The notes under the pieces were generated by a model. The model saw only the letters and a program-made list of their open reading frames with translations. It made no database searches and had not been told where the DNA came from. The translations under genes were made by a program, and so were the position numbers. This document shows positions 6,888 through 61,959 of a stretch of DNA of 64,000 bases, piece after piece. Source of the stretch: an uncultured Roseibium sp. (lineage in GTDB: Bacteria; Pseudomonadota; Alphaproteobacteria; Rhizobiales; Stappiaceae); the NCBI RefSeq assembly GCF_947494555.1, contig NZ_CANLVF010000003.1, positions 310,001-374,000 on the forward strand, written 5' to 3'. The first letter of the stretch is position 1. Each line of letters starts with the position of its first letter.

Positions 6888-6938
6888 AAATCCTTTAACA
6901 CTAGTGCCGTGGTGATGTTGAACCGGAAACGACCCGAT

Positions 6939-6971
6939 CTGGCTTTATGCTGCACCATAAACTGGCCCTAA
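6939..6971 (+). promoter_or_regulatory. candidate TauR-type direct repeats upstream of xsc
   Basis: Two CTGG-starting decamers occur in direct orientation, CTGGCTTTAT at 6939 and CTGGCCCTAA at 6962, 23 bp apart, 85-118 bp upstream of the xsc start. From memory, TauR of Rhodobacter capsulatus binds direct repeats of CTGGACYTAA in front of taurine genes. The downstream copy differs at one base, the upstream copy at three. No tauR gene is in the window, so this is inferred from motif and position only. Confidence 0.35.
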
Positions 6972-7056
6972 GAGCGCGGTGGCAAGTCGAGTTAAATCTC
7001 GCCTCAACGCAGCATTTGCGGGAAGAGATTTCCTTGAATTCACGGGAGTATTCGCT

Positions 7057-8835: not shown

Positions 8836-8869
8836 GACCCTGCGCTGATGCGCCATTTGCCTCCAAAGA

Positions 8870-8908
8870 CGTCTTCTCCAGGGTGAACAGTTCTCTCCGG
8901 GGAAGACG
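8870..8908 (+). other. intercistronic hairpin between xsc and pta
   Basis: CGTCTTCTCC (8870-8879) can pair with GGGGAAGACG (8899-8908) over 10 bp including one G-U, leaving a 19-nt loop. No T-run follows, so it is not a classical terminator. It may set different stabilities or levels for the xsc and pta-soe parts of the transcript; this role is inference. Confidence 0.4.
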
Positions 8909-9082
8909 ATCAGTAGACGGGATAACGGCGCACTTCAAATACCGGCACCGCCGCTGACAAGGTCAACCGTGATCCTCCAGCGGCGGCGCCAGCCCACCGG
9001 TTCGCTGCCATGCCCGAATGCCGGCACAAAGGGAACAACCAGCGGTCAGACCGGTCAGCCAATGCCAGGAGAGCAAGGTCGC

Positions 9083-10114
9083 ATGAAACCTTTGGAAAAC
9101 ATCCTGCAGAATGCCGCCAGCGCGCAAAAGACAATCGTGCTGAGCGAAGGTACGGACCCAAGGGTAATCCAGGCGGCAATCGATGCGCGCAAACTGGATG
9201 TCGCCAGGATCATTCTCGTTCTGGACAAGGGATCTGAAGGCACGCGGCCTGCCGCTCTCGACGAAGAGATTGAAGGCCTGGAGGTACACGATCCCTCCAG
9301 CTCGCCTGTGACCCAGGAACTTGCCGACCTTTACTATTCCATGCGCAAGCACAAAGGCATTTCGCCTGAGCAGGCTCTGGAGCAGGCAAAAATTGCGCAT
9401 GTCTACGCAGCGCTGCTCGTCAAGGCAGGGCACGCGGACGGCTGCATCGGCGGCGCGGTGCTGTCCTCTGCCGAAGTCATCAAGACGGCGATACAGGTGA
9501 TCGGAGTTGCAGAAGGCACAAAGCTCGTTTCGAGTTTCTTCCTGTTTCTCTTTTGTGAAGACCACCACACGCGCAAAGGCGCCTGCATATTTTCAGACGC
9601 GGGCCTTGTCGTTGATCCCTCAGCGGAAGAGCTGTGTGAAATCGCGATAGCATCGGCGCACTCGTTTCAGGACCTCACGAACGAGACGGCCCGCATCGCG
9701 ATGCTGTCATTTTCAACGCGGGGCAGCGCGAAACACCACGCCGTTTCGAAAGTTCAAAAGGCGACAGATCTCGCGCGTGAGGCAGCGCCCGATCTCCTGA
9801 TCGACGGTGAGTTGCAATTCGATGCGGCATTCGTACCTGAAGTTGCTCAATCGAAGGCGGCGGATTCGCCGATCGCAGGCAACGCGAACGTTTTCATATT
9901 TCCAAATCTTGACGCAGGGAATATCGGTTACAAGATCGCACAAAGAATCGGCGGCGCAACAGCGATCGGTCCGATCCTGCAAGGTCTATCGCATCCGGCA
10001 AACGACTTGTCGCGCGGGTGCAGCTCGGAGGATATTCTTCACATGATCGCAGTCACTACCGCGCAGTCGCTTCACAAGGACAAGACGACCTCCAGCGTGG
10101 AGCAGCAGGTATGA
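9083..10114 (+). CDS. pta: phosphate acetyltransferase
   Basis: A 343-residue short-form Pta (PTA_PTB fold) that turns acetyl phosphate from Xsc into acetyl-CoA. Typical segments are TIVLSEGTDPRVIQAA near the N-terminus and, near the C-terminus, NVFIFPNLDAGNIGYKIAQR with IGPILQGL. It lacks the N-terminal DRTGG/P-loop regions of long enterobacterial Pta, as usual for Xsc-linked enzymes. The start at 9083 is chosen because the family sequence begins at MKPLENIL; ATG 9062 is possible but less well spaced from the AGGAGAG site. Its TGA overlaps the soeA ATG (ATGA at 10111), so the two are translationally coupled. Confidence 0.93.
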   Translation: MKPLENILQNAASAQKTIVLSEGTDPRVIQAAIDARKLDVARIILVLDKGSEGTRPAALDEEIEGLEVHDPSSSPVTQELADLYYSMRKHKGISPEQALEQAKIAHVYAALLVKAGHADGCIGGAVLSSAEVIKTAIQVIGVAEGTKLVSSFFLFLFCEDHHTRKGACIFSDAGLVVDPSAEELCEIAIASAHSFQDLTNETARIAMLSFSTRGSAKHHAVSKVQKATDLAREAAPDLLIDGELQFDAAFVPEVAQSKAADSPIAGNANVFIFPNLDAGNIGYKIAQRIGGATAIGPILQGLSHPANDLSRGCSSEDILHMIAVTTAQSLHKDKTTSSVEQQV

Positions 10115-12927
10115 CCGATCCCGTCCTCGATACCTCGCCGAAAGTGTCGGACGAAGTCCGTAAAACCACCTGCTACATGTGCGCTTGCCGGTGCGGCATC
10201 AACGTCCATATGAAGGATGGAAAGGTCGCCTATATCGAAGGCAATCGCGATCATCCCGTGAACAAGGGTGTGCTGTGTGCCAAGGGATCGTCCGGCATCA
10301 TGCAGGTCAACGCTCCGTCTCGTCTGAGGGCGCCGCTCAAGCGCACCGGGCCGCGCGGATCGGGCGAGTTTGAAGAAATCTCCTGGGACGAAGCCCTGGA
10401 ACTCGCCCGCTCGTGGCTGGATCCGATCCGCAAGTCCAGTCCCGAAAAATTGGCCTTCTTTACCGGACGCGATCAATCCCAGAGCTTCACGAGCTTCTGG
10501 GCCCAGAATTTCGGAACACCGAACTACGCCGCTCATGGCGGGTTCTGTTCCGTCAACATGGCAACCGCCGGTATCTACACGATGGGCGGCGCTTTCTGGG
10601 AATTCGGTCAGCCGGACTGGGACCATACCAAACTCTTCATGATCTTCGGCGTTGCGGAAGATCACGATTCCAACCCTATCAAAATGGGGCTTGGCAAGCT
10701 GAAGGCGCGCGGAGGCAAGGTGATCGGCGTCAATCCGATCCGTTCCGGCTACAACGCCATTGCCGACGAATGGGTCGGCATCACGCCGGGCACGGATGGG
10801 TTGTTTATTTCCGCCTTGATCCACGTTCTGCTGAAAGCGGGCAGGATCGACCTCTCCTACCTCTCCCAGTTCACCAACGCGCCCTGCCTTTTGAACGCAA
10901 CATCGGGTTCGCCGGAAGAAGGCCTTCTTCTGCGCGACGGCGACGGCAAGCCGCTCGTCGTTGACCGGGCCAACGGTACGCTTCAACCCTTCGACAAACA
11001 AGGGGTAAACCCGGATCTGGCTGCCAGTGTCGACATGGACGGCGTAACCCACAAGACCGTGTTCCAACATCTGGCGGATCGTTTTCTGTCAAACGAATAC
11101 AGCCCGGAAGCCGTATCGGAGCGCTGCGGTGTCAGTGCGGGACGGATCAAGGCTATTGCCGGCGAACTTGCGCGCGTTGCTTTTGAAGAAGCCTTTGAAC
11201 TCGACCAGCCCTGGACGGATTTTCGCGGCAACAAGCACGAAAAGATGCTCGGCCGGCCGGTCAGCTTCCATGCCATGCGCGGCATCTCGGCCCATTCCAA
11301 CGGGTTCCAGACGTGCCGCACGCTCCATATCCTTCAGATCCTGCTCGGAACAGTGGAGGTCCCCGGCGGTTTCCGCTTCAAGCCGCCCTATCCGAAACCG
11401 GTCGAGGCCCACCCGACGCCGCACTGCCACTCCAAGCCGGATTGTCCGCTCGACGGCCCCCATCTCGGGTTCGTGCGCGGACCGGACGATCTCGCCCTGA
11501 AGGAAGACGGCACGCCGGCGCGCATCGACAAGGCGTTTACCTGGGAAAATCCGCTGTCGGCCCACGGGTTGATGCACATGGTCATTTCCAATGCCCATGC
11601 CGGTGATCCCTACAAGATCGACACGTTGTTCTTCTACATGGCCAACATGGCCTGGAACTCGTCCATGAACACGCGCGGCGTCATGGACATGCTCACCGAC
11701 AAGGACGAGAACGGCGATTATGTCATTCCGCGCATCATCTATTCCGATGCATATTCCTCGGAAATGGTTGCCTATGCCGACCTGATCCTTCCCGATGCGA
11801 CCTATCTGGAACGGCATGACTGTATTTCACTGCTTGACCGGCCGATCTGTGAGGCCGATGCAGCCGCCGATGCCATCCGCTGGCCGGTGATTGAACCGGA
11901 TCGAGACGTTCGTGGTTTTCAATCGGTCCTGATCGACCTCGGCGCGCGTCTCAAACTGCCCGGCTTTGTCGACGAAAACGGCGAGGCGCTTTATGCCGAC
12001 TATGCCGACTACATGGTCAACCACCAGCGGCGGCCCGGTATCGGCCCGCTCGCAGGCTTCCGTGGAAACGGCACCGAGACCGGCCGGGGCGGCGTGAACC
12101 CGAACCAGCTCGAGCGTTACATCGAAAACGGCAGCTTCTTCGTCGAGCACGTTCCAGCGGAAGCGTCCTACTACAAGCCCTGGAACACCGCCTACCAGGA
12201 CTGGGCGGTCAAGCTCGGGTTCTACGACAAACCGCAGCCCTACCTGTTTCAGCTCTATGCCGAACCGCTGCGCCGGATGCAGCTTGCCGCAGAGGGTCAC
12301 GGAGATCGTCAGCCGCCGGATCATCTCAGGCAACAGATCATCGATCACCTTGATCCGATACCGGCCTGGTATGCACCTCTTGAGGAGGCATCCGTCGATA
12401 CGGACAGCTACCCGATCCACGCGCTTACCCAGCGGCCAATGGCCATGTACCACTCCTGGGGCAGCCAAAATGCCTGGCTCCGGCAGATACACGGACACAA
12501 CCCGCTCTACGTGCCGACAAAACTCTGGAAGGAACACGGGTTCAAGGACGGCGACTGGGCGAAGGTCACGTCGGTTCATGGCGAGATTACCGTTCCGGTC
12601 GCGCACATGGCGGGTCTCAACGAGAACACTGTCTGGACCTGGAATGCGATCGGTAAGCGCAAGGGTGCCTGGGCACTGGACGAGGATGCACCCGAAGCAA
12701 CGCGCGGGTTCCTTTTGAACCACCTCATTCACGAGCTCCTGCCACCAAAGGGCGACGGGCTCAGGTGGTCGAATTCAGATCCGGTAACCGGTCAGGCGGC
12801 CTGGTTCGATCTGAGGGTGCGCATTGAAAAAGCTGCTCCCGTTGAAGAAAGCCTGCCTGTTTTCGGCGCATTGAAATCGCCGGTCGGCAAGGGCCCAGCC
12901 ATCGTTCGACAGAAAGTGACGTCATGA
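10111..12927 (+). CDS. soeA: sulfite dehydrogenase SoeABC, molybdopterin catalytic subunit
   Basis: A 938-residue molybdopterin oxidoreductase of the DMSO-reductase/polysulfide-reductase family. An N-terminal [4Fe-4S] site is formed by Cys21, Cys24, Cys28 and Cys56. The segment HGGFCSVNMA places Cys146 as the likely molybdenum ligand. The C-terminal dinucleotide-binding domain includes HALTQRPMAMYHSWGSQNAW. There is no twin-arginine signal, consistent with a cytoplasm-facing SoeA. Located directly after xsc-pta and followed by four-cluster and membrane subunits, it most likely oxidises the sulfite released by Xsc to sulfate, feeding electrons to quinone. Related reductases look similar, but context decides the role. 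Confidence 0.88.
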   Translation: MTDPVLDTSPKVSDEVRKTTCYMCACRCGINVHMKDGKVAYIEGNRDHPVNKGVLCAKGSSGIMQVNAPSRLRAPLKRTGPRGSGEFEEISWDEALELARSWLDPIRKSSPEKLAFFTGRDQSQSFTSFWAQNFGTPNYAAHGGFCSVNMATAGIYTMGGAFWEFGQPDWDHTKLFMIFGVAEDHDSNPIKMGLGKLKARGGKVIGVNPIRSGYNAIADEWVGITPGTDGLFISALIHVLLKAGRIDLSYLSQFTNAPCLLNATSGSPEEGLLLRDGDGKPLVVDRANGTLQPFDKQGVNPDLAASVDMDGVTHKTVFQHLADRFLSNEYSPEAVSERCGVSAGRIKAIAGELARVAFEEAFELDQPWTDFRGNKHEKMLGRPVSFHAMRGISAHSNGFQTCRTLHILQILLGTVEVPGGFRFKPPYPKPVEAHPTPHCHSKPDCPLDGPHLGFVRGPDDLALKEDGTPARIDKAFTWENPLSAHGLMHMVISNAHAGDPYKIDTLFFYMANMAWNSSMNTRGVMDMLTDKDENGDYVIPRIIYSDAYSSEMVAYADLILPDATYLERHDCISLLDRPICEADAAADAIRWPVIEPDRDVRGFQSVLIDLGARLKLPGFVDENGEALYADYADYMVNHQRRPGIGPLAGFRGNGTETGRGGVNPNQLERYIENGSFFVEHVPAEASYYKPWNTAYQDWAVKLGFYDKPQPYLFQLYAEPLRRMQLAAEGHGDRQPPDHLRQQIIDHLDPIPAWYAPLEEASVDTDSYPIHALTQRPMAMYHSWGSQNAWLRQIHGHNPLYVPTKLWKEHGFKDGDWAKVTSVHGEITVPVAHMAGLNENTVWTWNAIGKRKGAWALDEDAPEATRGFLLNHLIHELLPPKGDGLRWSNSDPVTGQAAWFDLRVRIEKAAPVEESLPVFGALKSPVGKGPAIVRQKVTS

Positions 12928-50590: not shown

Positions 50591-52054
50591 TCAATTTGCC
50601 TGCGATTTGATGAAGCCGTTCACGATGCTGACGATGCCCTTGGACAACAGATCGTCCAACGCGTCGCAGAAGGTGTCGACATTCTCCATCGTGCACACAA
50701 GCGGTGGCTCAAGGCGGATGACGTTGCGGTTGTATTCGGTGAATGCCACAAGAATGTCGTAGTCTCTGAGAAGCTGCGCCCCGATGAAGCCGGACAGCGA
50801 TCCCTTCAGCTTGTCGTCAAGCAGAGACAGCATCGGGCGCAATACCACCGGCATCGTCTTAGAAAAATCCTGGAACTCCAGACCGACCATGAGACCCTGG
50901 CCGCGCACGTCCTTGATGATTTTCGGATACTTTTCCTGAAGCGTATTTAACCGCGAAATCAGATGCGCGCCGACACGCGCGGCATTTTCCATCAGGTCTT
51001 CGTCGTAAAGGACGTTCAGACCTTCAATCGCCGTGATGCTCGCCTCGCCGATACCGCCGAAGGTTGCCTGTGCGTGGATCATAGCGGTTTTTGGGGAGCC
51101 ATAGGCCTTCATGTAAACATCGCGCTTTGCGATCATCGCACCGACAGCGGCCTTGCCTGCCCCTAGGGATTTGGCAAGCGCCGTCACGTCCGGAACAACC
51201 CCATAGTGTTCGAACGCATAGAACTTGCCTGTCCGGCCATAACCGCACTGTACTTCGTCTGCGACCCACAGAACGTCGTGCTTGTCGCACAGAGCCCGCA
51301 CGCCCTTCCAGTAGCTTTCCGGCGCAGAAATGATCCCGCCGCCGCCCTGGATCGTTTCCAGAACCACAACGCCGATCTCGGGATCCGATTCAATCGCGTG
51401 AGTGAGGGCTTCCAGATCGCCGAATGGAACCTTTACATGATTGTCGACGAGCTTGAAGCTGCCCTGGTAGAGATCAGAGTCAGTCAGCGAAAGAACACCC
51501 TTGGTCTTGCCATGGAACGAGTTCCCCGCGTGTACGATCTTGCAGTTTTTGCGCCCGGATGCGCGCTCGGCAACCTTGACCGCCGCTTCCATCGCCTCCG
51601 AACCGGAAGACCCGAGGAACACCATGTCGAGGTCGCCCGGCGAACATGCCGCGAGGTTCTTCGCAAGGGCCGATGCGTATTGCGACAGGAAGGCGATCGC
51701 AATCTCGTGCCGGCCTTCCTCCTGAAATTTCTGGCGTGCAGCGATTACGCGCGGATGGTTATGGCCATGTGCCAGCGATCCGAAGCCACCGAAAAAGTCC
51801 AGGATCCGCCGGCCGTTCTGGTCGACATAGTACATGCCGTCTGCGGTCTCGATCTTGACCTTGTGAAACCCGAGCAGCTTCATGAAATGGAACTGTCCCG
51901 GATTGATGTGCTCCTTGAACAGATCGGCCATGGACTGAGGGTCAAGCGCTTTCGCGTCTTCGACCGTCAGGAGATCCGGCTTCGAGCTGTTCTCAGGAGC
52001 GGCTTCCAGCTCGGTCTCGGAGAAGTCGGCTTTTACTGCGGTGTTCTGCAACAT
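50591..52054 (-). CDS. class III (ornithine-type) PLP aminotransferase
   Basis: A 487-residue fold-type I aminotransferase with an N-terminal extension of about 60 residues. Marks include DFFGGFGSLAHGHNHP, FLGSSGSEAMEAAVKVAE, VADEVQCGYGRTGKFYAFE and the Lys in ALAKSLGAG. Substrate unknown: relatives act on omega-amino groups of amino acids, polyamines or hopanoid side chains. It is the last gene of an operon with a small DMT-type carrier and an SDR epimerase, hinting at an amino-modified lipid or sugar. ATG 52054 with AGGA is used; the codon before it is TTG. Confidence 0.82.
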   Translation of the reverse strand: MLQNTAVKADFSETELEAAPENSSKPDLLTVEDAKALDPQSMADLFKEHINPGQFHFMKLLGFHKVKIETADGMYYVDQNGRRILDFFGGFGSLAHGHNHPRVIAARQKFQEEGRHEIAIAFLSQYASALAKNLAACSPGDLDMVFLGSSGSEAMEAAVKVAERASGRKNCKIVHAGNSFHGKTKGVLSLTDSDLYQGSFKLVDNHVKVPFGDLEALTHAIESDPEIGVVVLETIQGGGGIISAPESYWKGVRALCDKHDVLWVADEVQCGYGRTGKFYAFEHYGVVPDVTALAKSLGAGKAAVGAMIAKRDVYMKAYGSPKTAMIHAQATFGGIGEASITAIEGLNVLYDEDLMENAARVGAHLISRLNTLQEKYPKIIKDVRGQGLMVGLEFQDFSKTMPVVLRPMLSLLDDKLKGSLSGFIGAQLLRDYDILVAFTEYNRNVIRLEPPLVCTMENVDTFCDALDDLLSKGIVSIVNGFIKSQAN

Positions 52055-52062
52055 CAAAATTC

Positions 52063-53076
52063 CTATTCTGCCGGCTGTGCCGAGCCTTGATCGACGCGGG
52101 TGCCGTCATTCTTTTGTGCGCGGTATTCGTCGTAAGCGGCGATCAGCATGTCTTCATCGCGATATGCGGGGACCCAACCAAGATCGCGTTCGCCTTTTGA
52201 AACATCCAGAACGCACATTTCATCAGCGATCAGATATTGCTCCGGATCCATGATCGGCATGTTGAGCGCATCGAACAGGTCGAGCGTGCGTTTGACCGCG
52301 AAGCCCCAGGTCGGGATCAGGATCGATTTCGAATGAGCGTGCTTGACCAAATCGCCAAGCAGCTTCCTGACGGGCGGCGGATTGATGGATCCCAGATTGT
52401 AGGCCTCGTTCGGAACACCGGCCTTCCAGGCCTTGTAAGCCGCATCCGCGCAGTCATAGACGGAAATGAACTGATACGGGTTCTTGCCCGACCCGATCAT
52501 GGGAACAGGCAGGTTCAAGTCGATCAGCTTGAACAGCTTGGTCAGGATGCCCAGACGGCCCGGCCCGATGATCAGCCGCGGGCGGAACAGCGTGATGTCC
52601 ATGCCGCGTGCGCGCCACTCGGCTGCCAGGATTTCCGTATCGAGTTTCGACTGCCCGTATTCCCCAAGGGGTGAAACAGGATGGTCTTCGGTCATCGGGT
52701 AGGTAACCGTGTGGCCGTACACCATATCGGTCGTGTAGTGGACCAATTTGCTCGCACCTGCGCGGTCCATCGCCTCGATGATGTTCTTCGTTCCGTCGTA
52801 ATTGACGGGATAGAAAAAATCATGCCGCTTTGCCCTCACCTGGATCGGCGAAAGCATTTTTGCAGACAGATTGTAGACCATATCCCCACTGGTCACCGGC
52901 ACGGCGGCAACAGCTTCGGGATCGGTCACGTCACAGTCAAGGATCGTCGCCTTTGCGTAAAGATGGCGATGAGTTTGCGCGATATCAGCAACGACGACGT
53001 CCTCGCCGTCTTCCAAAAGACGCTTGGCGAGCTGCCGTCCGACAAATCCGTCCCCACCGAAAAGGATGTGTTTCAC
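52063..53076 (-). CDS. NAD-dependent epimerase/dehydratase (extended SDR)
   Basis: A 337-residue extended short-chain dehydrogenase. NAD binding is at HILFGGDGFVGRQLAKRL (residues 3-20); the catalytic region is HYTTDMVYG with the YxxxK pair in EYGQSKLDTE. It probably acts on a nucleotide- or lipid-linked sugar, or on another hydroxy substrate. Start is GTG 53076, overlapping the stop of the upstream DMT-carrier gene (GTGA). Eight bases separate it from the aminotransferase gene. Confidence 0.85.
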   Translation of the reverse strand: MKHILFGGDGFVGRQLAKRLLEDGEDVVVADIAQTHRHLYAKATILDCDVTDPEAVAAVPVTSGDMVYNLSAKMLSPIQVRAKRHDFFYPVNYDGTKNIIEAMDRAGASKLVHYTTDMVYGHTVTYPMTEDHPVSPLGEYGQSKLDTEILAAEWRARGMDITLFRPRLIIGPGRLGILTKLFKLIDLNLPVPMIGSGKNPYQFISVYDCADAAYKAWKAGVPNEAYNLGSINPPPVRKLLGDLVKHAHSKSILIPTWGFAVKRTLDLFDALNMPIMDPEQYLIADEMCVLDVSKGERDLGWVPAYRDEDMLIAAYDEYRAQKNDGTRVDQGSAQPAE

Positions 53077-53510
53077 TTCGAGGTCTCCTTGAGAGCAACT
53101 TGTTGGACCTTGGCGTCCGTGTCAGCGCGATCCTGGTTCGAACCGCCTTGCGCAATAAAGGCGGTGCCAACACAAATCAGGGCGATGCCAAAAACCCGCA
53201 TCGCGTTCAGATCTTCGTGGAAGATGAAGAAGGCGTAGACGGCAACCACCACATAGGCGAGCGACAGGAATGGATAGGCGTAGGACAATTCCACCTTGGA
53301 CAGCACGTAGAGGTGTGACGCCATTGAAATCACGAAAGTGCACAGGCCGAGAAAGACGAAGGGTGTGAACACCACCTGCAGCAATTTTACGATCAGATTG
53401 CTGTGCAGTGTGCTGAAGTCGCCAATCTGCGTCATTCCGTATTTCAACATGATCTGTGCCGCTGCGTTTGTCAGGACGGTAAACAGAATGAAGGGAAGGT
53501 AAGTACTCAT
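53073..53510 (-). CDS. small four-helix DMT/EamA-SMR-type membrane carrier
   Basis: A 145-residue protein with four predicted helices: YLPFILFTVLTNAAAQIMLK, then FTPFVFLGLCTFVISMASHL, YAYPFLSLAYVVVAVYAFFI and VFGIALICVGTAFIAQGG. Size and order match single-domain EamA/ArnE-ArnF-like carriers, which flip undecaprenyl-phosphate-linked aminoarabinose or other lipid-linked sugars as dimers. Start ATG 53510 is preferred; the ribosome-binding site is weak. It leads the operon with the SDR and aminotransferase genes. Confidence 0.72.
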   Translation of the reverse strand: MSTYLPFILFTVLTNAAAQIMLKYGMTQIGDFSTLHSNLIVKLLQVVFTPFVFLGLCTFVISMASHLYVLSKVELSYAYPFLSLAYVVVAVYAFFIFHEDLNAMRVFGIALICVGTAFIAQGGSNQDRADTDAKVQQVALKETSK

Positions 53511-53681
53511 ACAGGCCGTCTCCGCACGGGCTTGATGCAACACCGGCAATATCCTTCGAATTCAATTAAATTATATTAATTTGAAATTCACTCGAGTTAC
53601 CGTTTTTGCTATGAATAACAAAACATTACTTGATTTCGATAATTTTTCTTTACACAAAAATATATCGTTTACTTATGCGAT
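53511..53681. promoter_or_regulatory. very AT-rich promoter region of the carrier-SDR-aminotransferase operon
   Basis: This 171-bp gap contains the AT-rich, partly palindromic block TTCAATTAAATTATATTAAT starting at 53561 and ending in TTGAA at 53585, and further A/T runs to 53680. It contrasts sharply with the GC-rich flanks. It probably holds the promoter for the minus-strand operon and possibly binds a silencer; no consensus boxes were assigned. Confidence 0.4.
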
Positions 53682-54983
53682 TCAGCTTAGAGCTGTTCTG
53701 CGCCAGAAGTCTGACAACAGCACGGGATCCCGTAACTCTTCGAGCCGTTGCCAGTGCGGGAACGAAGCCTTGAACGTGAACGAAGACATCCGCCGGTCCT
53801 TGTACGGGTTCACGGCACCGCCGGCGGCCAGGGTGATCTCGTCGAGTTGCTGCAGAAGCGCGAGGGTTGGCCCGCCTTTGTCAGGGAAGTCGAGCGTGAG
53901 TGTGTAGCCGGGGCGCGGAAAACTCATGAATCCAGGGCTTTTCATGGATCCGAAACGCTTCAGAACCGTCAGAAACGATCCATGCCTGCTCGCCTGCGTG
54001 CATTCCAGGAGCGACTTCACTGTCTCAAAGCCCTCGCTTTCCGGAATGACACTCTGATGCTGATGCAGCCCCCGCGGACCGTAGAGACGGTTCCAGCGCC
54101 CGATCCGGTCGAGCGGAAAGAAGAACTTGTCGGAGGCAACGTCCTTTATCGAACACCCCGCCGGCGCACTGCGAAAATAGGTTTCGTTGAAGAGACTGAG
54201 GAAGGGGCCCTGAAGCGGTGTGATGGGAGGCGTGAAGGGGATGGTCAGGCGCGGTCCGGAGGCTTTTTCCTGATATTCACCACTGGCCGCATGATCTCCC
54301 GCGATCAGATGACCGCGCCCGAAACGCTTTCCGATGCTGAGAGAGTCGATCCATGCGACCGCGTATTCGTGCTTTTCGTCGGCCGCTTCCGCGAGATCAA
54401 AATAGTCCTCGAGGCAATCGAAGCGCGTTGTTTCCTGCCGGATTGACGGCGAAGTTACCTGCATTAACCGAATGGTCGCCGAACGGATCAATCCGGTAAG
54501 GCCCAGTCCGCCGATCGTTGCCGCAAAGAGACCGGTTTCATCGCCCGGCCTGATCGAGAGGCTGCCTTTGTCGGTACGGTCAAGGCGGATCTCCTCGACA
54601 TGGCAGCCGAAGGTGCCCTTGCGATGATGGTTCTTGCCGTGAATATCGTTTGCAATCGCTCCGCCGAGCGTGACGAACTGCGTTCCGGGCAGGACTGCCG
54701 GAAACCAGCCATGAAGCGCAACGGCACTGATGATTTCCGACAGAAGAACACCGGCTTCCGCTTCCAGGAGACCTGTCGACTTGTCGAATGTCAGAATTCT
54801 GCCTGACGAACGTGTCGCTACGGCGGTTCCAGACGCATTCAGACAGCTGTCCCCGTAACTGCGCCCGTTGCCGTATGGTAGCAGACTCCCCGGTTTACGC
54901 GAGGCCGCCAAATAGGCATCGGGCTGCACCTGATCGGTTGCTTCGACCTTCAGACCGCCCCAGCTTTGAACATGCTTTGTCAC
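53682..54983 (-). CDS. FAD-binding oxidoreductase, DprE1-like (decaprenylphosphoryl-ribose oxidase family)
   Basis: A 433-residue VAO-type flavoprotein. It has PYGNGRSYGDSCLN at residues ~36-49 for the FAD pyrophosphate, and LPGTQFVTLGGAIANDIHGKNHH near residue 97, the hallmark of DprE1/sugar-1,4-lactone oxidases. The C-terminus FKASFPHWQRLEELRDP also fits. DprE1 oxidises the C2 hydroxyl of decaprenylphosphoryl-ribose en route to arabinofuranose. Start GTG 54983, six bases after the HAD-UbiA gene on the same strand, which would make its substrate precursor. Confidence 0.82.
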   Translation of the reverse strand: MTKHVQSWGGLKVEATDQVQPDAYLAASRKPGSLLPYGNGRSYGDSCLNASGTAVATRSSGRILTFDKSTGLLEAEAGVLLSEIISAVALHGWFPAVLPGTQFVTLGGAIANDIHGKNHHRKGTFGCHVEEIRLDRTDKGSLSIRPGDETGLFAATIGGLGLTGLIRSATIRLMQVTSPSIRQETTRFDCLEDYFDLAEAADEKHEYAVAWIDSLSIGKRFGRGHLIAGDHAASGEYQEKASGPRLTIPFTPPITPLQGPFLSLFNETYFRSAPAGCSIKDVASDKFFFPLDRIGRWNRLYGPRGLHQHQSVIPESEGFETVKSLLECTQASRHGSFLTVLKRFGSMKSPGFMSFPRPGYTLTLDFPDKGGPTLALLQQLDEITLAAGGAVNPYKDRRMSSFTFKASFPHWQRLEELRDPVLLSDFWRRTALS

Positions 54984-54989
54984 GCCGGA

Positions 54990-56426
54990 TCACCAGACCG
55001 CAGCAATGAGAAACAAAAACGCGCCACACCCGATCATAAACTGACTGCGCCAGTCCTTCAGGATGAACACGATCGGGTCCTCATGCATTTCGTCCCTGCG
55101 CGCCAGGATCCAGATACGCATGATGATGTAGAGGATCAGCGGACACAGGAGCCAGATCATCTGCGGAACCGCATAGGCCCGCTCGATTGCCGGACTTTGA
55201 ATATAAAGCGCGAGAACCAACACCGCCGCGAAGCCCGATGTCATCCCGGCCTGCGAAATCGTCTCAAGGTCCACATGCCGGTACCCGCGCCCGGTGACTG
55301 CGCGCGAAGCCGTCTCGCCGACCTGCTGCAGCTCGGTGAAGCGTTTCACGAGCGCGAGGGACAGGAAGAAAAAGACGGAGAACGCCAGCAACCAGAAGGA
55401 ATATTCGATACTTGCGGCCACACCGCCCGCAAGAACACGGATCGTATAAAGGCCGGCCAGAACAAAGACATCCAATAGCAGCATCCGTTTGACGGAGACG
55501 GAATAGGCGGTGGTGATGAAGAGATAGAGCAGCAGGATGCCCGCAAACTCGATCGGCAGAAGCGTTGAAATCGCGAAGGCCACCGCGATGGAAACAAATG
55601 CCAGTCCCAGACCGTTCGGAACACTCAATCGTCCGCTGGCAAAGGGGCGCTTCCGCTTTGTCTTGTGATTGCGGTCTGACTCAAGGTCCATCAGGTCATT
55701 CAGGATATAGATTGCCGAGGCAGAGAGAGAAAACGCGACAAAGGCCAGGATTGCGCTCAGGAGCACGGAGCCGACGAAGATTTCATGCGCCATGACGGCC
55801 GGCACGAAGATCAGCGTGTTTTTGAGCCATTGATGCGGGCGCATTGCCTGAACGGCGGCCTTTACCTGGCTTTCCGAGGCTTCGATCCGGTTGGCACCGG
55901 ATTGCTTCTGCCAACGATTGGCGGCGCGGTCCGGTGCGACGACTGTCGCCTCCGAGGCTGCCTCGAACAAGCAAACGTCCTGATGCGAGTTGCCGTAATA
56001 CTCAAAACCGAGGTCACCGGCTTCCGCTTCGATACGCTCAAGCTTGCGCCCTGATGTGAGATTGGTTTCCTCGTCCGAGGCGAGCACGCGATCAAAGAGA
56101 GCAAGATGGTCGGCAACGGCGTGGGCGAGTTTCTCGTTCGAGCCCGTTGCCAGGACAAGCTGCCGTCCCAGCGCTTTTTGTGCGCCCAATTGCTCCACGA
56201 CCTCGGCCCGGTAAGGCAGAACCGTCACATCGATCCCGGCTGCTTCCGCCAGCCGCGCCTTCGTATAGGCGATGCCTCTCAAGACCCATCCGAACAGCGC
56301 GAACACGATCAGGGGATTACGACGCAAGGACTGAAACAGGCTCTCCCAGAGCAGATCGGTCCGGAGCAACGTTCCGTCCAGGTCCACATAGATTGTCCTG
56401 TTTGAAGTCTCTAGGCGCTGATCCAT
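54990..56426 (-). CDS. HAD phosphatase-UbiA prenyltransferase fusion (DPPR-synthase-like)
   Basis: A 478-residue two-domain protein. Residues ~10-190 form a HAD phosphatase (nucleophile Asp in IYVDLDGTLLRTDLL). Residues ~200-478 form a UbiA-type prenyltransferase with about nine helices, the Mg-binding motif NDLMDLESDRNHKTKRKRP and a second Asp motif in LLLDVFVLAGLYTIRVLAGG. Mycobacterial Rv3806c (UbiA) transfers phosphoribose to decaprenyl phosphate and a separate phosphatase removes the 5-phosphate; here both would be in one chain. The DprE1-like gene follows at 6 bp. ATG 56426 is preferred over the adjacent TTG. Confidence 0.83.
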   Translation of the reverse strand: MDQRLETSNRTIYVDLDGTLLRTDLLWESLFQSLRRNPLIVFALFGWVLRGIAYTKARLAEAAGIDVTVLPYRAEVVEQLGAQKALGRQLVLATGSNEKLAHAVADHLALFDRVLASDEETNLTSGRKLERIEAEAGDLGFEYYGNSHQDVCLFEAASEATVVAPDRAANRWQKQSGANRIEASESQVKAAVQAMRPHQWLKNTLIFVPAVMAHEIFVGSVLLSAILAFVAFSLSASAIYILNDLMDLESDRNHKTKRKRPFASGRLSVPNGLGLAFVSIAVAFAISTLLPIEFAGILLLYLFITTAYSVSVKRMLLLDVFVLAGLYTIRVLAGGVAASIEYSFWLLAFSVFFFLSLALVKRFTELQQVGETASRAVTGRGYRHVDLETISQAGMTSGFAAVLVLALYIQSPAIERAYAVPQMIWLLCPLILYIIMRIWILARRDEMHEDPIVFILKDWRSQFMIGCGAFLFLIAAVW

Positions 56427-56705
56427 CAAGCAGACGTCCCGAGCTCAAGCGCTGCCACAGCCCCCACTGGAGCTTCACGGCGCCAAACTCTTTCCCTGTT
56501 GGTCACTATCGATGCACACTATTCGTGCTTAATTTTCACCAGAACTAGCGCGAATTTCTTATCATGCGCTTTAGAGCGAAGTGAAAGAACACGATTTCGG
56601 CCGCATTTTACGCAAATTATGCAAATTTTTGACAAGCCGATGCCAATATACTTATCGAATGATGAATCCTAAAAAGAGAGTTTTACTTAGAAGCCGATTT
56701 GAAAA
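56427..56705. promoter_or_regulatory. 279-bp intergenic region upstream of the HAD-UbiA gene
   Basis: The left part (56427-56540) is GC-rich and the right part (56560-56705) is AT-rich (TTTACGCAAATTATGCAAAT region). No gene is supported. It should include the promoter for the minus-strand HAD-UbiA/DprE1-like pair and the 3' end of the operon to its right. Confidence 0.4.
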
Positions 56706-57512
56706 TTAATATTTGGACTTTGGAAAAGCTGCAAAGTCGATGTGACCGATCGTGACGCGAATATCACCGGACCGCATTTGCGTCAGATGTTGCGACCGCC
56801 ACTCTTCCAGAACCTCGTGCGACGTTCCGTTTTTCAGGCCGACTCCGGACCAGCCCGACAGGAACTCGTCCAAAAATGCCTCGTCGGCGGGCCCGACAAC
56901 CCAGTCGGATGTTCCCTTGACGACTTCGTAGCCCCTTGCCTTGAACAATTCGATTGCCCGCTCGGCTGCCAGAGGCCCTAGGGCGGGACCAAAGCCCTTG
57001 TCCAACCGCTGGTCGCTGTTCAGAGCATCCAGCATCGTTTGATCCAGCGATGCCGGCGGAGCAAAGGTTATGCGCCCGTCATAGGTCAAACTGGCCAGAA
57101 ACGGCTTTTGCACCCGGACGACACAGTCGACAAGGCGTACCAGAAAATCATCCGAAACGAGATCCAGGAAAGCCGAAGTCGTGATGGCATCCACATCTGG
57201 AAATGGAAGATCTTCGAATTTGGCGGCCAGATCGACCTGACGAAGCGAAAGCTCCCCCTGGAGTTGCTGCTGCCAACGTTCGTGCGCAACCGCAATAAGA
57301 TCAGAATCATGATCGGTCAGCGTCCACGTAGTGTCAGCCGGCAACTGGTCTTTCAGGGCAGCTACCGTCGACCCTGCGCCGCTGGCAAGATCCAGGAGAC
57401 GCGGAGAGCTTGCAGGCAATTGTTTCAGGAAGGCCGTTTCGACGTCCTGGTTCCTGGCGGCAAGATCCAGCGGCTCTCTCAAGGCCAGCCATTTAGAGGA
57501 AAATCCGCTCAT
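56706..57512 (-). CDS. class I SAM-dependent methyltransferase-like protein
   Basis: A 268-residue protein. Motif I appears as LLDLASGAGSTVAAL near residue 39, with WTLTDHDSDLI as motif II and DAITTSAFLDLV as motif IV, so SAM binding is plausible. The substrate is unknown. It is the last gene of a minus-strand operon with a GT4 transferase (ATGA overlap), a PTPS-fold protein and a BchC-like dehydrogenase, so it likely modifies the same small molecule. Confidence 0.78.
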   Translation of the reverse strand: MSGFSSKWLALREPLDLAARNQDVETAFLKQLPASSPRLLDLASGAGSTVAALKDQLPADTTWTLTDHDSDLIAVAHERWQQQLQGELSLRQVDLAAKFEDLPFPDVDAITTSAFLDLVSDDFLVRLVDCVVRVQKPFLASLTYDGRITFAPPASLDQTMLDALNSDQRLDKGFGPALGPLAAERAIELFKARGYEVVKGTSDWVVGPADEAFLDEFLSGWSGVGLKNGTSHEVLEEWRSQHLTQMRSGDIRVTIGHIDFAAFPKSKY

Positions 57513-58561
57513 TTCTCCGCACCCTCCAATGCCCCGGCAAACCTTGTCGCTGCGTCCCGCCAGTCAGGCAATGCAGCGGCAGCCATCTCGGCAGCCTGCG
57601 CCATGTCGCGCCTTGCATTTGGATCGCTCAAAAGCAGTTTGAGAGCGCTTCCAAGCCTTTCTGTATCCTCTATGCCGCAGTAAATCGCGGCGTCTTCCGG
57701 CAGCGTGTCTTCAACCGCACCGCCGCCACTGCCGATCACCGGCAACCCGTGCGCCAACGCTTCGGTATAGGCCATTCCGTATCCTTCATAACGACTGGCA
57801 AGAACGAACACGTCGGCACTGCGATAGAAGCCCGGAAGGTCGCAAGGGGCAACCGCGCCGTGAAACGTTACGCGTTCGGTCAGGCGGTGTTCCGGCAGGC
57901 TCGAAACCAATGCTGCATGGCACGCCGGATCCGCGTCAAGGCCGCCGACAATGTCGAGATGCCAATCGTATTCCTGCAGATTTGCCAGCGCAGAAAAAAG
58001 CAGATCGTACCCTTTTCGCGGCACCACGGTGCCAACGGAAAGCAGCCGCACTTGCTCCGACGCGCTTCTTTGGATCCGGCCGTGTTTTTCCGTTCCGGGC
58101 AGAATGACCGAAATGGATGCCTGCGCAATCCCGAACAGGTCCATGACCTGGTCGGCGGTCGCATGACTGGTCACGATGACATGGTTTGCATGGGACAGGG
58201 CCTTGCGCTCGCTATCGAGCAAAGCCTCCGACTGCTCAGGCGAAAGGCCGGTTTCCCGGCAGAGTGGATGATGCACCAGCGCCACGAGCTGCAAGCGGCC
58301 GGTCAAGGCAGACGCTATGTCCGCCATGGTACCGAATGCCAACCCGTCCACCACCAGCAGCGCCTCCTCAGGTAGCCGGGCAAGCATGTCGCGGCTTTTG
58401 GCAAGGGTCGATTGCGACGGGAAGGGAAACCCGTCTCCAAGCGAAATCAGTTCAACGGACCAGCCCAGATCACGAAGCCCGGCAATGATCTGGCGGTCGT
58501 ACCCATACCCGCCCGTCGGCGTGTCCAGGTTGCCCGGATAGGCGAAAAACAGCTTTTTCAT
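57509..58561 (-). CDS. GT4-family glycosyltransferase
   Basis: A 350-residue GT-B enzyme: N-terminal FAYPGNLDTPTGGYGYDRQI, inter-domain LLSVGTVVPRKGYDLLFSAL, and nucleotide-sugar site ASRYEGYGMAYTEALAHGLPVIG. Its acceptor is unknown. It overlaps the methyltransferase gene by ATGA and sits 6 bp after the PTPS-fold gene, so glycosylation of a pterin-like product is a reasonable guess, as in cyanobacterial pterin glycosides. A cell-surface polysaccharide role is the alternative given nearby EPS genes. Confidence 0.82.
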   Translation of the reverse strand: MKKLFFAYPGNLDTPTGGYGYDRQIIAGLRDLGWSVELISLGDGFPFPSQSTLAKSRDMLARLPEEALLVVDGLAFGTMADIASALTGRLQLVALVHHPLCRETGLSPEQSEALLDSERKALSHANHVIVTSHATADQVMDLFGIAQASISVILPGTEKHGRIQRSASEQVRLLSVGTVVPRKGYDLLFSALANLQEYDWHLDIVGGLDADPACHAALVSSLPEHRLTERVTFHGAVAPCDLPGFYRSADVFVLASRYEGYGMAYTEALAHGLPVIGSGGGAVEDTLPEDAAIYCGIEDTERLGSALKLLLSDPNARRDMAQAAEMAAAALPDWRDAATRFAGALEGAEK

Positions 58562-58567
58562 TGCCGA

Positions 58568-58966
58568 TCAGATTTTGGCTTCGTACCAGGCACGCGCAAC
58601 GTGAGATTCCGAAATGGTCACCCGGATCGCATCGAGTTCACTGCCGGACCTGCCGAGGCGATTGTCGCGGGCGGCCTTTGCGAGATGATCGTGGATGTGC
58701 TTGGTCAGGAATTCGGTGGTCGTATTCACGCCGGCAAACTCGGGCACGTCGTCGAGATTTTTGTAATTCAGGGGCCCCAGGACCTCCTTCAATGCTTCGT
58801 GCGCGCGGCCGATGTCGATCACCACGCCGTTGTCATCCAGTTTTTCGGACAGAAATGCAGCATCTATGACAAATGTCGCCCCGTGCAGGGCCTGCGCGGG
58901 ACCGAACAGCTCCCCCTTGAAGGAATGGGCAATCATGACATGGTCGCGAACTTCAACAGCAAACAT
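58568..58966 (-). CDS. 6-pyruvoyl-tetrahydropterin synthase/QueD-fold protein with altered active site
   Basis: A 132-residue T-fold protein. His14 (MIAHSF) and His28 (LHGATF) match two zinc ligands of PTPS/QueD. The third ligand of the usual HGH motif is Ala30, and the catalytic Cys four residues before His28 is Ala24. The TTTEF motif and the C-terminal ISESHVARAWYE, holding the pterin-anchoring Glu, remain. It may bind a pterin or similar ligand but should not work as ordinary PTPS or QueD. ATG 58966 is chosen at the family start; the frame extends to 59020. Confidence 0.8.
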   Translation of the reverse strand: MFAVEVRDHVMIAHSFKGELFGPAQALHGATFVIDAAFLSEKLDDNGVVIDIGRAHEALKEVLGPLNYKNLDDVPEFAGVNTTTEFLTKHIHDHLAKAARDNRLGRSGSELDAIRVTISESHVARAWYEAKI

Positions 58967-59023
58967 ATTTCGAGGTTCCTGAGACTTCTGGTCGAACTGG
59001 TTGGACGGGGCGGGGAGCACCTT

Positions 59024-60061
59024 CTAGCAGATCTGCTCCTCATAAACGACAAGAGCGGCCAGGACATCTGACGCCTTGTTCAACACTTCGGGAAGTTGCT
59101 CCGGCAGATTTTGAAATGCAATCCTGTGCGTGATCAGATGATCAAGTACCGGGTCCGCGAGGAGCGACATTGCCGTTTCCAGACGCCGCCGGTAGGTCCA
59201 TCTGGGCTGGCGCTCAAACGGGATCGTTCCGACCTGACTGGAGATAAGCTTAAGGCGCCGGCTGTGGAAGTCGGCGCCCAGGGAAACAGCAACGTTTCCA
59301 GCACCATACCAACTCATTTCAACGATGGACGTCCCATCTCCGGCGCATTCCAGTGCCGTCGCCAAGCCTGCCGCGCTGGCGCTTGTGTGAAACACGATGT
59401 CCTGATCTCGCGGCGCATTTTGCGGCAGTGCAAAATAAAGTCCGAGTGCGTTCGCAGATTCTGCACGCTCAGGGTTTGTATCAATGACGGTGACGGTTGA
59501 TCCGGGCAGTTTGCCTGCGACGTATGCGGTCAGGAGGCCGACAACGCCGCCTCCAACCACGCAGATGTGATCCCCAGGTGATGGTTTTCCGTCCCATATA
59601 GCGTTAAGCGCTGTTTCCATATTGGCTGCAAGAACAGCACGTTCTGGCGAAACACCATCAGGAACCGGCACGCAAGAGTTGGCAGGGAGAGTGTAGACGT
59701 TTTGATGTGGGTAGAGGGAAAAGACGGTTCGGCCGACCAGAGCTGTGTCTCCTTCCAGAACCGTGCCGACGCTGGAATATCCGTATTTAACCGGAAACGG
59801 GAAGTCTCCTTTCTGAAACGGCGCACGCATTCGCTGCCATTCGCTTTGCGGAACCTGCCCACGAAAAACGAGGCCTTCCGTGCCGCGACTTACGCCGCTA
59901 TAGAGTGCTTTCACGAAAACCTCTCCAGGTTGCGGCCGTTGAAGCGGAACCCGTTCAAGGCTGCATCGCTCACTTTCCTGATACCACAAAGCGCATGGCT
60001 CGGGTGTGCCGCGCGTCACCACCTCTTTTTCCGTCATTCCCGTACCGTTCCACTCACTCAA
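59024..60061 (-). CDS. zinc-type (MDR) alcohol dehydrogenase-like protein, BchC-like
   Basis: A 345-residue medium-chain dehydrogenase. The N-terminal GroES-like domain has ALYSGVSRGTEGLVFRG, where the catalytic zinc Cys of typical ADHs is Ser, as in BchC-like members. The NAD(P) fold begins HICVVGGGVVGLLTAYVA. It probably oxidises or reduces a hydroxyl/keto side chain, by analogy with sepiapterin-reductase-like steps on pterins, but this is inference. The TTG at 60061 has an AGGAG site at 4 bp; ATG 60037 is an alternative. First gene of the four-gene operon. Confidence 0.78.
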   Translation of the reverse strand: MSEWNGTGMTEKEVVTRGTPEPCALWYQESERCSLERVPLQRPQPGEVFVKALYSGVSRGTEGLVFRGQVPQSEWQRMRAPFQKGDFPFPVKYGYSSVGTVLEGDTALVGRTVFSLYPHQNVYTLPANSCVPVPDGVSPERAVLAANMETALNAIWDGKPSPGDHICVVGGGVVGLLTAYVAGKLPGSTVTVIDTNPERAESANALGLYFALPQNAPRDQDIVFHTSASAAGLATALECAGDGTSIVEMSWYGAGNVAVSLGADFHSRRLKLISSQVGTIPFERQPRWTYRRRLETAMSLLADPVLDHLITHRIAFQNLPEQLPEVLNKASDVLAALVVYEEQIC

Positions 60062-60135
60062 TTAGCTCCTGTCAATTTTAGGACATTTTGACATGTGCAC
60101 TATCGCCACGATTGCCCGGATTGGAAGTCAAAAAA

Positions 60136-61959
60136 ATGTTTCGAGTCTCTGACATCTCCCATTCAGACAAATCTGCGACACGCATGACTGTCAGGCGAGT
60201 GATCTTCGCGTCGCTGCTGGCAATCAGTTTCATCGGACTTACGGCATTGATGGCGGTGACGCTGTCACCGGGTGGTCTTCAGCCACTTGATCTGTTCATC
60301 CTGGTCTGTTTCATGGTGACCCTGCCATGGACAATAATCGGGTTTTGGAACGCCGTTATCGGCTTGCTGATCATGAGGCTGTCCCGCGATCCTGTGACGG
60401 CGGTATGCCCCATAAAACCAGGTGTTCCGGATGCGCAGCTTACAAGTTCGACAGCGCTTTTGTCCTGCGTGCGCGACGAGGACGTGGATAGCCTAGAAAC
60501 AAATCTGAGCGCGATGGTAACCAACCTTATCCGGTCCGGATATGCGCCGCATTTCACGCTCTACGTACTCAGTGACACGTCAATCGATGCCATTGCACTG
60601 CAAGAGCAGGAAATGAGCGCCCGCATGTCGGAACGCTTTCAGGGGCAAATGGACGTCATCTATCGGCGCCGCTCTCTGAATACGGGCTTCAAGGCCGGCA
60701 ACATCGAAGATTTCTGCGACCGTTGGGGCGATGAGCACGATTTCGCGCTGGTCCTTGATGCCGACAGCTACATGTCAGCCAATGCGATTGCCACGCTTGT
60801 TCGCCGCATGGAAGCAAATCCAAATCTGGGTATCCTGCAAAGCCTCGTTGTCGGCCTTCCTACCGACAGTGCCTTCGCACGGGTGTTCCAGTTCGGAATG
60901 CGGCTTGGTATGCGCTCCTATACGATCGGCAGTGCCTGGTGGCAGGGCGACTGCGGTCCCTATTGGGGACATAACGCCCTTCTGCGCCTGAAACCCTTCA
61001 AGGAGCATTGCCGGCTGCCGGTGCTGCCCGGCAAGGGACCGCTTGCGGGCACGATCCTGTCTCACGACCAGGTTGAAGCGGTTCTCATGCGCCGCGCAGG
61101 CTACCAGTGCCGCGTTTTGCCGCTTGAAACAGGCAGCTATGAAGACAATCCGCCCCATCTTCTGGAATTTATCCGAAGGGATCTGCGCTGGTGTCAGGGG
61201 AACCTTCAGTATCGCCGCCTGATCGGCATGAAAGGCCTCAAGCCGGTCAGCCGCGTGCAATTGTTCCTGGCAATCTTGATGTTCCTCGGCTCGCCGGCCT
61301 GGATCGGCTTCATGGTCGCAGCGGCGGTTCTGGGCATGACCACCGATTATGCACCCTATCGTGCAGACACCGGCGTGGTGATTTTCTTCACCGTCCTCGG
61401 AATGGTTTTTGCGCCGAAGATCGCGACGGTTGCCGACGTCCTGGCCCGCCGCGATCTGAGAAAAGCTTTCGGCGGTCCCGTCAGGGTGCTGATCAGTTTC
61501 GGTTCGGAAATCGTTTACTCGGCGATGCTGGCGCCAATTATGGCTGTCGCCCATACCCTGTTCATGGGTGGCCTCGCGGTCGGCAAAACCATCGGCTGGG
61601 GTGCACAGGCGCGCGGCGTCGCACGGCTTCCGATCCCGCTGGCAGCCGCCAAGCTCTGGCCGCAAACGCTTTTCGGTCTCGCAGGCCTTGTCTGGATTTC
61701 GTCACAGCCGATCGAACTTGTGTGGCCGATAATTCCGGTGGCCATCGGGCCGCTGCTGGCAATCGGGATTGCCGTATCGACGTCTACGAAGTTTCTTGGA
61801 AAGCTTGGCATCCGTTCGACACTCTGGCGCATCCCGGAAGAAACACGCCCACCAGCCGAACTGTCTGATCTGCACTTGCCTGCGCTCGCACAGCACACGG
61901 CACCAGCCGACGCACAGACCGGTCTGGTTCAGGGCGATCCGAAACCGGCAGAAATCTAA
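60136..61959 (+). CDS. opgH: glucan glucosyltransferase, OpgH/MdoH-like
   Basis: A 607-residue membrane GT2 enzyme. Two helices (residues ~18-80) precede the cytoplasmic catalytic domain with SCVRDED, TGFKAGNIEDF, VLDADSYM, LSHDQVEAVLM and RRDLRWCQGN (the R/QxxRW motif). Several C-terminal helices follow, including VQLFLAILMFLGSPAWIGFM. OpgH polymerises the beta-1,2-glucan backbone of osmoregulated periplasmic glucans. No opgG is adjacent, and it is shorter than enterobacterial OpgH (~850 residues), as in many alphaproteobacteria. ATG 60136 follows GGAAG. Confidence 0.9.
   Translation: MFRVSDISHSDKSATRMTVRRVIFASLLAISFIGLTALMAVTLSPGGLQPLDLFILVCFMVTLPWTIIGFWNAVIGLLIMRLSRDPVTAVCPIKPGVPDAQLTSSTALLSCVRDEDVDSLETNLSAMVTNLIRSGYAPHFTLYVLSDTSIDAIALQEQEMSARMSERFQGQMDVIYRRRSLNTGFKAGNIEDFCDRWGDEHDFALVLDADSYMSANAIATLVRRMEANPNLGILQSLVVGLPTDSAFARVFQFGMRLGMRSYTIGSAWWQGDCGPYWGHNALLRLKPFKEHCRLPVLPGKGPLAGTILSHDQVEAVLMRRAGYQCRVLPLETGSYEDNPPHLLEFIRRDLRWCQGNLQYRRLIGMKGLKPVSRVQLFLAILMFLGSPAWIGFMVAAAVLGMTTDYAPYRADTGVVIFFTVLGMVFAPKIATVADVLARRDLRKAFGGPVRVLISFGSEIVYSAMLAPIMAVAHTLFMGGLAVGKTIGWGAQARGVARLPIPLAAAKLWPQTLFGLAGLVWISSQPIELVWPIIPVAIGPLLAIGIAVSTSTKFLGKLGIRSTLWRIPEETRPPAELSDLHLPALAQHTAPADAQTGLVQGDPKPAEI

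Follow-up and report, generated by a model that had tools for sequence, protein, structure and literature searches.

A conserved four-gene unit around a PTPS-IV protein in Roseibium and other bacteria, a candidate route to a glycosylated, methylated pterin-like compound

The PTPS-IV proteins are a subfamily of COG0720 that carries the signature FGPAQ and that forms cluster 62, with 561 sequences, in the AGeNNT paper (PMC5445326). Their genomic link to GTP cyclohydrolase II (GCH II; PF00925) and to RibD_C reductases (PF01872) is already published there (PMC5445326). For one member, SCO6650 of Streptomyces coelicolor (PDB 3d7j), the fold has been solved. Here we describe a PTPS-IV gene in a 64,000-nucleotide stretch of DNA (the window) from an uncultured Roseibium sp. 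(assembly GCF_947494555.1, 7.0 Mb; contig NZ_CANLVF010000003.1, positions 310,001 to 374,000 of the forward strand); the closest named matches of the PTPS protein are from Roseibium, with 95% identity. The gene is the second of four on the minus strand (window positions 56706 to 60061), which encode a dehydrogenase, the PTPS-fold protein, a family 4 glycosyltransferase (GT4), and an S-adenosylmethionine (SAM) methyltransferase. These four genes are a real and widely conserved unit, not a chance grouping. We hold with moderate confidence, on the basis of sequence comparison, that the unit is dedicated to making a glycosylated, methylated, and probably membrane-linked pterin-like compound from a riboflavin-type opening of GTP.

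Gene content, gene order, conservation, and the residues lost or kept were observed directly in several samples of loci. A similarity scan of species genomes confirmed 183 relatives, of which the 80 best were kept, many of them on short contigs; 63 of these 80 loci hold all four genes in one and the same order. Twenty-nine of them (L003 to L031; Roseibium, Labrenzia, Pannonibacter, and similar organisms) are referred to below as loci of the window's kind. Among 398 Pseudomonadota genomes drawn evenly, 27 encode a PTPS-IV protein (20 of 213 genera), and 26 loci from this even set were counted after the window's own genome had been excluded; one of these (L146) is interrupted by a contig end, and another (L133) begins at one. 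The dehydrogenase gene lies directly upstream of the PTPS gene in all 26, the GT4 gene is next downstream in 23, and the methyltransferase gene follows the GT4 gene in 23, with the four genes in order in 23 loci. Plasmids gave 21 matching records, among which 13 loci were opened, and seven contain the complete ordered set (Methylosinus, Rhizobium, Agrobacterium, Thiodictyon, two Streptomyces, and Microbacterium). The order recurs in a gammaproteobacterium, in Streptomyces, and in Microbacterium. A looser haloarchaeal version is found on a plasmid of Natronorubrum bangense (L098, positions 6054 to 11507), where genes for a CDP-alcohol phosphatidyltransferase, a dehydrogenase, a divergent PTPS protein, a GT4, and a methyltransferase follow one another in that order, with one opposite-strand gene between the second and the third. 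Furthermore, over 68 loci, pairwise divergence in any one of the four proteins is correlated with that in the others (r = 0.73 to 0.89, with no outside control). The first-pass annotation of this DNA had described the four genes as packed on one strand, and the coordinates agree, with 57 bp between the dehydrogenase and PTPS genes, 6 bp between the PTPS and GT4 genes, and a 4-bp ATGA overlap shared by the GT4 and methyltransferase genes. The genes do co-occur elsewhere, and the objection that they do not travel together clearly fails.

The PTPS-fold protein matches Pfam PF01242 (78.6 bits; cut-off, 22.4), and among proteins of solved structure its best match is SCO6650 (E = 6.6e-44 over 130 residues); both contain the stretches FGPAQ, LHGAT, NLD, and ESHVA. 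SCO6650 is reported to be a hexameric T-fold protein with no zinc, no PTPS activity, and no assigned function. An alignment of 94 rows, which takes in the window copy and the divergent haloarchaeal one and which was compared with the genome's own QueD, retains the signature almost throughout (F21 in 93 rows, G22 in 94, P23 in 93, A24 in 93, and Q25 in 93). With residues assigned the roles that they have in PTPS and QueD (catalysis by a Cys, an Asp, and a His, zinc binding by three His residues, and contact of Glu120 with the pyrimidinone), the catalytic Cys position is Ala in 93 rows (A24 in the window), the catalytic His is Tyr in 93, and the catalytic Asp is Asn in 87. Ala replaces the third zinc His in 93 rows, and the other two zinc-type His residues are kept in all 94. 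The loss of the catalytic Cys noted in the first-pass annotation is therefore borne out; the protein has also lost both the Asp and the His of the catalytic pair, as well as a single zinc His out of three. Glu85 and Glu120 are invariant, and Glu120 is thought to hold a 2-amino-pyrimidinone.

Described enzymes of this fold do not account for the protein. Assignment to QueD (PTPS-I) was rejected because A24 and HGA stand in place of the CxxxHGH motif and because the match to TIGR03367 is 37.4 bits against a cut-off of 89.25. PTPS-II (tetrahydrobiopterin; CxxxxxHGH) and PTPS-III (folate; ExxHGH) were rejected on the Ala at the third zinc His and, for the latter, on a Gln in 93 of 94 rows at the position of the PTPS-III Glu. 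The other PTPS-family gene of the genome encodes a QueD with CxxxHGH and lies inside a queC-queD-queE set elsewhere; a queuosine or folate role for the operon gene is contradicted by its motif, and that separate set exists. The haloarchaeal protein of L098 has HSHH in place of HGAT and lacks FGPAQ. At two Streptomyces plasmid loci (L092 and L093), PTPS-IV occurs alone, near genes for MEKHLA and cupin-domain proteins, with the rest of the operon absent.

The three partner proteins are each recognizable by family. The dehydrogenase had been called BchC-like; a weak resemblance stands, but the score of 57.9 bits is far under the BchC cut-off of 291.25. At the two N-terminal places where the general family pattern, as opposed to alignment with a solved structure, puts the Cys and His ligands of zinc alcohol dehydrogenases, these proteins carry SRGTE (66 of 68) and KYGY (64 of 68), which makes the usual “zinc-binding” annotation doubtful. 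The GT4 protein matches Glycos_transf_1 (PF00534; 95.9 bits; cut-off, 26.4) and has an E-x7-E motif that is preserved at its alignment position in 67 of 68 sequences; its top family model is an exopolysaccharide transferase, at 85 bits against a cut-off of 400. The methyltransferase matches Methyltransf_25 (PF13649; 33.9 bits; cut-off, 27), and its family is marked by a distinctive conserved stretch, DKGFGPALGP; the predicted model has a mean local confidence score (pLDDT) of 94.5.

Genes that could supply a precursor recur beside the unit in relatives. Neighbor families were detected by BLAST with a few query proteins, with misses possible, and the 26 even-set loci include a RibD_C reductase in 22, GCH II in 11, and a creatininase-family protein in six. 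Base rates in the same 27 genomes, with shared ancestry ignored and RibD_C not among them, give an expectation of 0.27 genomes with GCH II within 9.2 kb by chance, against 11 seen; the corresponding figures are 0.44 against 12 for the CDP-alcohol phosphatidyltransferase and 0.49 against 7 for cytochrome b561. The remark in the first-pass annotation that no GTP cyclohydrolase or queuosine gene lies beside the operon holds for the window but not for many of its relatives. Open frames of the 22 reductases span 243 to 327 codons, and no deaminase domain was found in eight cluster reductases that were scanned; one of them, scanned against NCBIfam, matches the archaeal reductase model TIGR01508 at 100.5 bits, under the cut-off of 186.45. 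The deaminase-less reductases and the invariant Glu120 are two independent hints, both read from sequence, that the 2-amino group stays. Such a reductase would leave a 2-amino-pyrimidinone, the very group that Glu120 would hold, and it is chiefly because the two agree that we call the product pterin-like. The likely source of the precursor is the GCH II, riboflavin-type branch and not the FolE branch.

The same nine kinds of gene occur in nearly the same order at a Streptomyces locus (L099) and at loci of one Pseudomonadota family (L136, L139, L141, and L142). Both Streptomyces cluster copies of GCH II have Met at the position of Escherichia coli Tyr105, and each is adjoined by a creatininase gene; the other 42 of the 44 cluster copies examined, all from Pseudomonadota, have Tyr. 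According to Spoonamore and others (2006), GCH II of the SCO6655 type, with Met for Tyr, reportedly stops at a formylated pyrimidine. In Sinorhizobium, that formyl group is taken off by the creatininase-family protein BrbF (PMC9478397).

Riboflavin-type enzymes in the relatives' clusters would also suit a flavin-like or deazaflavin-like (F420-type) cofactor, with PTPS-IV among the enzymes involved. One Streptomyces locus has an annotated F420-dependent oxidoreductase gene in its vicinity, and a 2016 article (PMC5041015) states, from unpublished data, that PTPS-IV acts in archaeal F420 synthesis. We consider this very unlikely for the unit described here. CofH was over the cut-off in none of the 27 PTPS-IV genomes and gave weak matches in 11, the strongest of which (G200; 208 and 106 bits) is in pieces in more than one frame, and none of the eight scanned cluster reductases has the deaminase domain required for making flavins and F420. 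The F420 route is not known to involve a GT4, a methyltransferase, or a dehydrogenase of this sort.

Membrane enzymes flank the unit, which makes a membrane-linked or glycan-linked product more likely than a free signal. The even-set neighbors include a CDP-alcohol phosphatidyltransferase in 12 loci, an MdoH-like protein in 11, an LPG-synthase-TM protein in 11, and an FkbM methyltransferase in eight; cytochrome b561 (seven), ATP-binding cassette (ABC) transporters (three), and sulfatase-fold proteins (three) are rarer. Reading of the gene maps places the MdoH-like gene in the upstream slot in eight loci and the CDP-alcohol phosphatidyltransferase gene there in 12, never both; L136, L145, and L148, with the latter gene in the slot, have an MdoH-like match further off. 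In the window the slot is taken by a divergent MdoH-like gene, the only copy found in the genome, and such a gene lies beside the operon in 27 of the 29 loci of the window's kind. Its product is over the cut-off of two MdoH models (NF003958, 521.8 against 419 bits; NF003962, 485.1 against 328 bits) and under that of seven others. An ABC transporter adjoins the MdoH-like gene in seven loci, which were not scanned singly. Cytochrome b561 is encoded beside 11 of the 29 loci of the window's kind and is absent from the window. Two genomes have a CDP-alcohol phosphatidyltransferase gene within about 2 kb of a RibD_C or cytochrome b561 gene away from the PTPS-IV locus (G016, C1:2534954-2537506; G341, C44:101109-102410), and these pairings hint independently that the three kinds of gene belong together.

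This membrane module bears on two other explanations. The unit might make a surface glycan or glycolipid only; PTPS-IV and the dehydrogenase would then have been co-opted for a reaction on a sugar or polyol, and the riboflavin-type neighbors would be incidental or would supply something like ribitol. In that case GT4 and the methyltransferase may serve polysaccharide synthesis alone, which the first-pass annotation had named as an outcome that would refute its pathway. The MdoH-like gene with its two models over cut-off, the ABC transporter near it, the CDP-alcohol phosphatidyltransferase, LPG-synthase-TM, FkbM, and sulfatase-fold genes of relatives, and the distant exopolysaccharide resemblance of GT4 all fit such a product, as does the presence of MdoG elsewhere in five tested genomes with an MdoH-like gene in the operon slot (G262, G191, G382, G095, and G091). 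However, the frequency of RibD_C and GCH II neighbors, the latter far above chance, and the invariance of Glu120 count against a pure glycan pathway, and we regard this explanation as rather unlikely. MdoG/OpgG (PF04349) was found in eight of 12 genomes tested, but no match was found in the window genome or in G012 and G047, which also have an MdoH-like gene, so that ordinary periplasmic-glucan synthesis does not account for the gene in these three. The role of MdoH as an ordinary periplasmic-glucan synthase is thereby weakened, although five genomes of the same layout do have MdoG, and the part of the MdoH-like gene in such synthesis here is doubtful.

If the product were instead a soluble pterin with sugar and methyl groups, secreted to act as a signal or light absorber in the manner of the cyanobacterial pterin glycosides, GT4 and the methyltransferase would be accounted for and the membrane genes would have a role in export only. 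Bacterial periplasmic pterin signaling does exist, and no pterin efflux system has been identified, according to a review (PMC13259868). The CDP-alcohol phosphatidyltransferase gene at 12 of the 26 even-set loci is hard to square with a soluble product, and the recurring supply genes are those of the GCH II branch (the search did not extend to FolE); we therefore judge this explanation unlikely. Distinctly unlikely, in our estimate, is the more specific possibility of a redox-active “lipopterin,” a membrane-anchored glycosylated and methylated pterin with a precursor from GCH II and RibD_C, which would be attached by the CDP-alcohol phosphatidyltransferase or the MdoH-like enzyme, transferred by the LPG-synthase-TM protein or the ABC transporter, and able to exchange electrons with the neighboring cytochrome b561.

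Returning to the pterin-like product, we infer each reaction, the order of the reactions, the precursor, and the product as follows. The precursor would be a ring-opened GTP intermediate that keeps the 2-amino group, a 2,5-diamino-6-ribosylamino- or 6-ribitylamino-4(3H)-pyrimidinone phosphate, and would be converted to a pterin-like headgroup. The zinc-free dehydrogenase would oxidize a side-chain alcohol. PTPS-IV may then grip the 2-amino-4-oxo-pyrimidine edge via Glu120 and, with neither zinc nor thiol, close or rearrange the molecule to a pteridine-like ring. GT4 would add a sugar and the SAM methyltransferase a methyl group, after which a membrane enzyme (MdoH-like here; the CDP-alcohol phosphatidyltransferase with a flippase-like partner elsewhere) might elongate the product or attach it to a lipid or glycan that is then exported. 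A dehydrogenase that makes a 2'-keto-ribityl compound closing to ordinary dihydroneopterin phosphate is not favored because FolE already makes such a compound. The pterin-like pathway proposed in the first-pass annotation is partly supported. The conserved unit, the intact GT4 motif, and the co-traveling methyltransferase speak for it, as do GCH II, RibD_C, and creatininase in relatives, which that annotation had no means of seeing; its precursor branch is changed, and its suggestion of a free signal has become less likely. The “glycosylated and methylated pterin” itself is a putative product.

Several observations weigh against this scheme. The ordered set is incomplete in three of the 26 even-set loci (L125, L127, and L133) and in six of the 13 plasmid loci, where, for example, no methyltransferase gene was found in L094, GT4 is missing from L096, and GT4 is set apart in L097. 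The fold search for the methyltransferase returned generic methyltransferases as the nearest solved folds and gave no substrate clue, and no product or activity of any member was found in the literature accessible to us. Creatininase is not reserved for Met-type GCH II: both Met copies fit, yet 20 of the 42 Tyr-type copies (16 of 31 in one set examined and 4 of 11 in another) are also near a creatininase gene, so the formyl logic is not strict.

A further difficulty concerns supply in the window's own kind. Across its 29 loci, no GCH II or creatininase gene adjoins the operon, and a RibD_C gene does so in two (Pannonibacter, L016 and L022); in the window, neither GCH II nor RibD_C adjoins it. 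The only GCH II-family match in the genome is a RibBA (L083, positions 673 to 1992, on contig C5, outside the window), the GCH II half of which lacks all three zinc cysteines. The best match to the cluster reductases in the window genome is no more than 38% identical and is an ordinary bifunctional RibD, judging by the deaminase motifs read from its sequence. Two creatininase-family genes occur in the window genome, elsewhere than at the operon, and frame sizes and scores point to no obvious dedicated reductase in G392, G382, or G086. With no adjoining supply genes, a RibBA without the zinc cysteines, and an ordinary RibD, the precursor would here come from the primary riboflavin enzymes, or a different precursor is used. 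A missing GTP-opening enzyme has been described for Sinorhizobium (PMC9478397).

The features of the locus are collected in Table 1. The dehydrogenase start is a TTG preceded by AGGAG, with an alternative ATG at 60037, and 26 bp separate the outermost possible starts of the dehydrogenase and MdoH-like genes. An adjoining minus-strand run (50591 to 56429) encodes a HAD-UbiA phosphoribosyltransferase-like protein, a DprE1-like oxidase, a short-chain dehydrogenase/reductase, a small EamA/ArnF-like protein, and a class III aminotransferase; it resembles the mycobacterial decaprenylphosphoryl-arabinose route. These UbiA-DprE1 genes adjoin the operon at only five of the 82 loci compared and were therefore excluded from the unit.

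Table 1. Features of the PTPS-IV locus (window coordinates)
Feature	Coordinates	Strand	Basis or remark
Class I SAM methyltransferase, conserved DKGFGPALGP stretch	56706..57512	-	Pfam, model, fold search
GT4 glycosyltransferase, E-x7-E intact	57509..58561	-	Pfam, aligned motif
PTPS-IV protein, 132 amino acids, FGPAQ	58568..58966	-	Pfam, SCO6650 (3d7j) match, alignment
Medium-chain dehydrogenase with weak BchC resemblance; catalytic zinc apparently absent	59024..60061	-	SRGTE and KYGY at zinc Cys/His places
Short spacer between divergent dehydrogenase and MdoH-like genes	60062..60087	.	Longer if the MdoH start codon is later
MdoH-like membrane glucosyltransferase, divergent, likely operon-associated	60088..61959	+	MdoH models; beside the operon in 27 of the 29 loci of this kind

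A set kept in fixed order in two phyla (Pseudomonadota and Actinomycetota), with a related haloarchaeal set, suggests a metabolite worth having. If the proposed pathway is correct, it would be a second bacterial route from GTP to pterin-like compounds, one that starts from the riboflavin branch instead of FolE and sends its product to the membrane, and PTPS-IV, for which a structure is solved and no proven function was found, would gain a testable substrate. It would also bear on how pterins reach the periplasm, which is called unknown in a 2026 review (PMC13259868).

Compared with PTPS-IV as treated in PMC5445326, the window protein has the same FGPAQ, and GCH II and RibD_C occur in its relatives as reported there, whereas these supply genes are not beside the window operon. 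The consulted parts of that account do not mention the dehydrogenase, GT4, methyltransferase, membrane genes, or a fixed order (PMC5445326), and neither the fixed order and spread of the four-gene core nor its alternative membrane modules nor a name for the metabolite surfaced in our searches of the open-licence literature. With the SCO6655-type GCH II, the two Streptomyces clusters share the Met and the creatininase, whereas 42 of 44 cluster copies have Tyr and the window's RibBA lacks the zinc cysteines. In the archaeal and fungal riboflavin route, reduction precedes deamination (ArfB/ArfC, MJ0671 type); the clusters share with it a deaminase-less RibD_C and a creatininase-family protein, but riboflavin is not the expected product here (the search at the loci did not cover genes for lumazine and riboflavin synthases). 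Cyanobacterial pterin glycosides derive from the FolE branch. Cyanopterin and biopterin glucoside, named in PMC13259868, share with the proposed product the idea of a sugar-bearing pterin. Unlike those glycosides, the clusters described here are tied to GCH II and RibD_C and to membrane enzymes.

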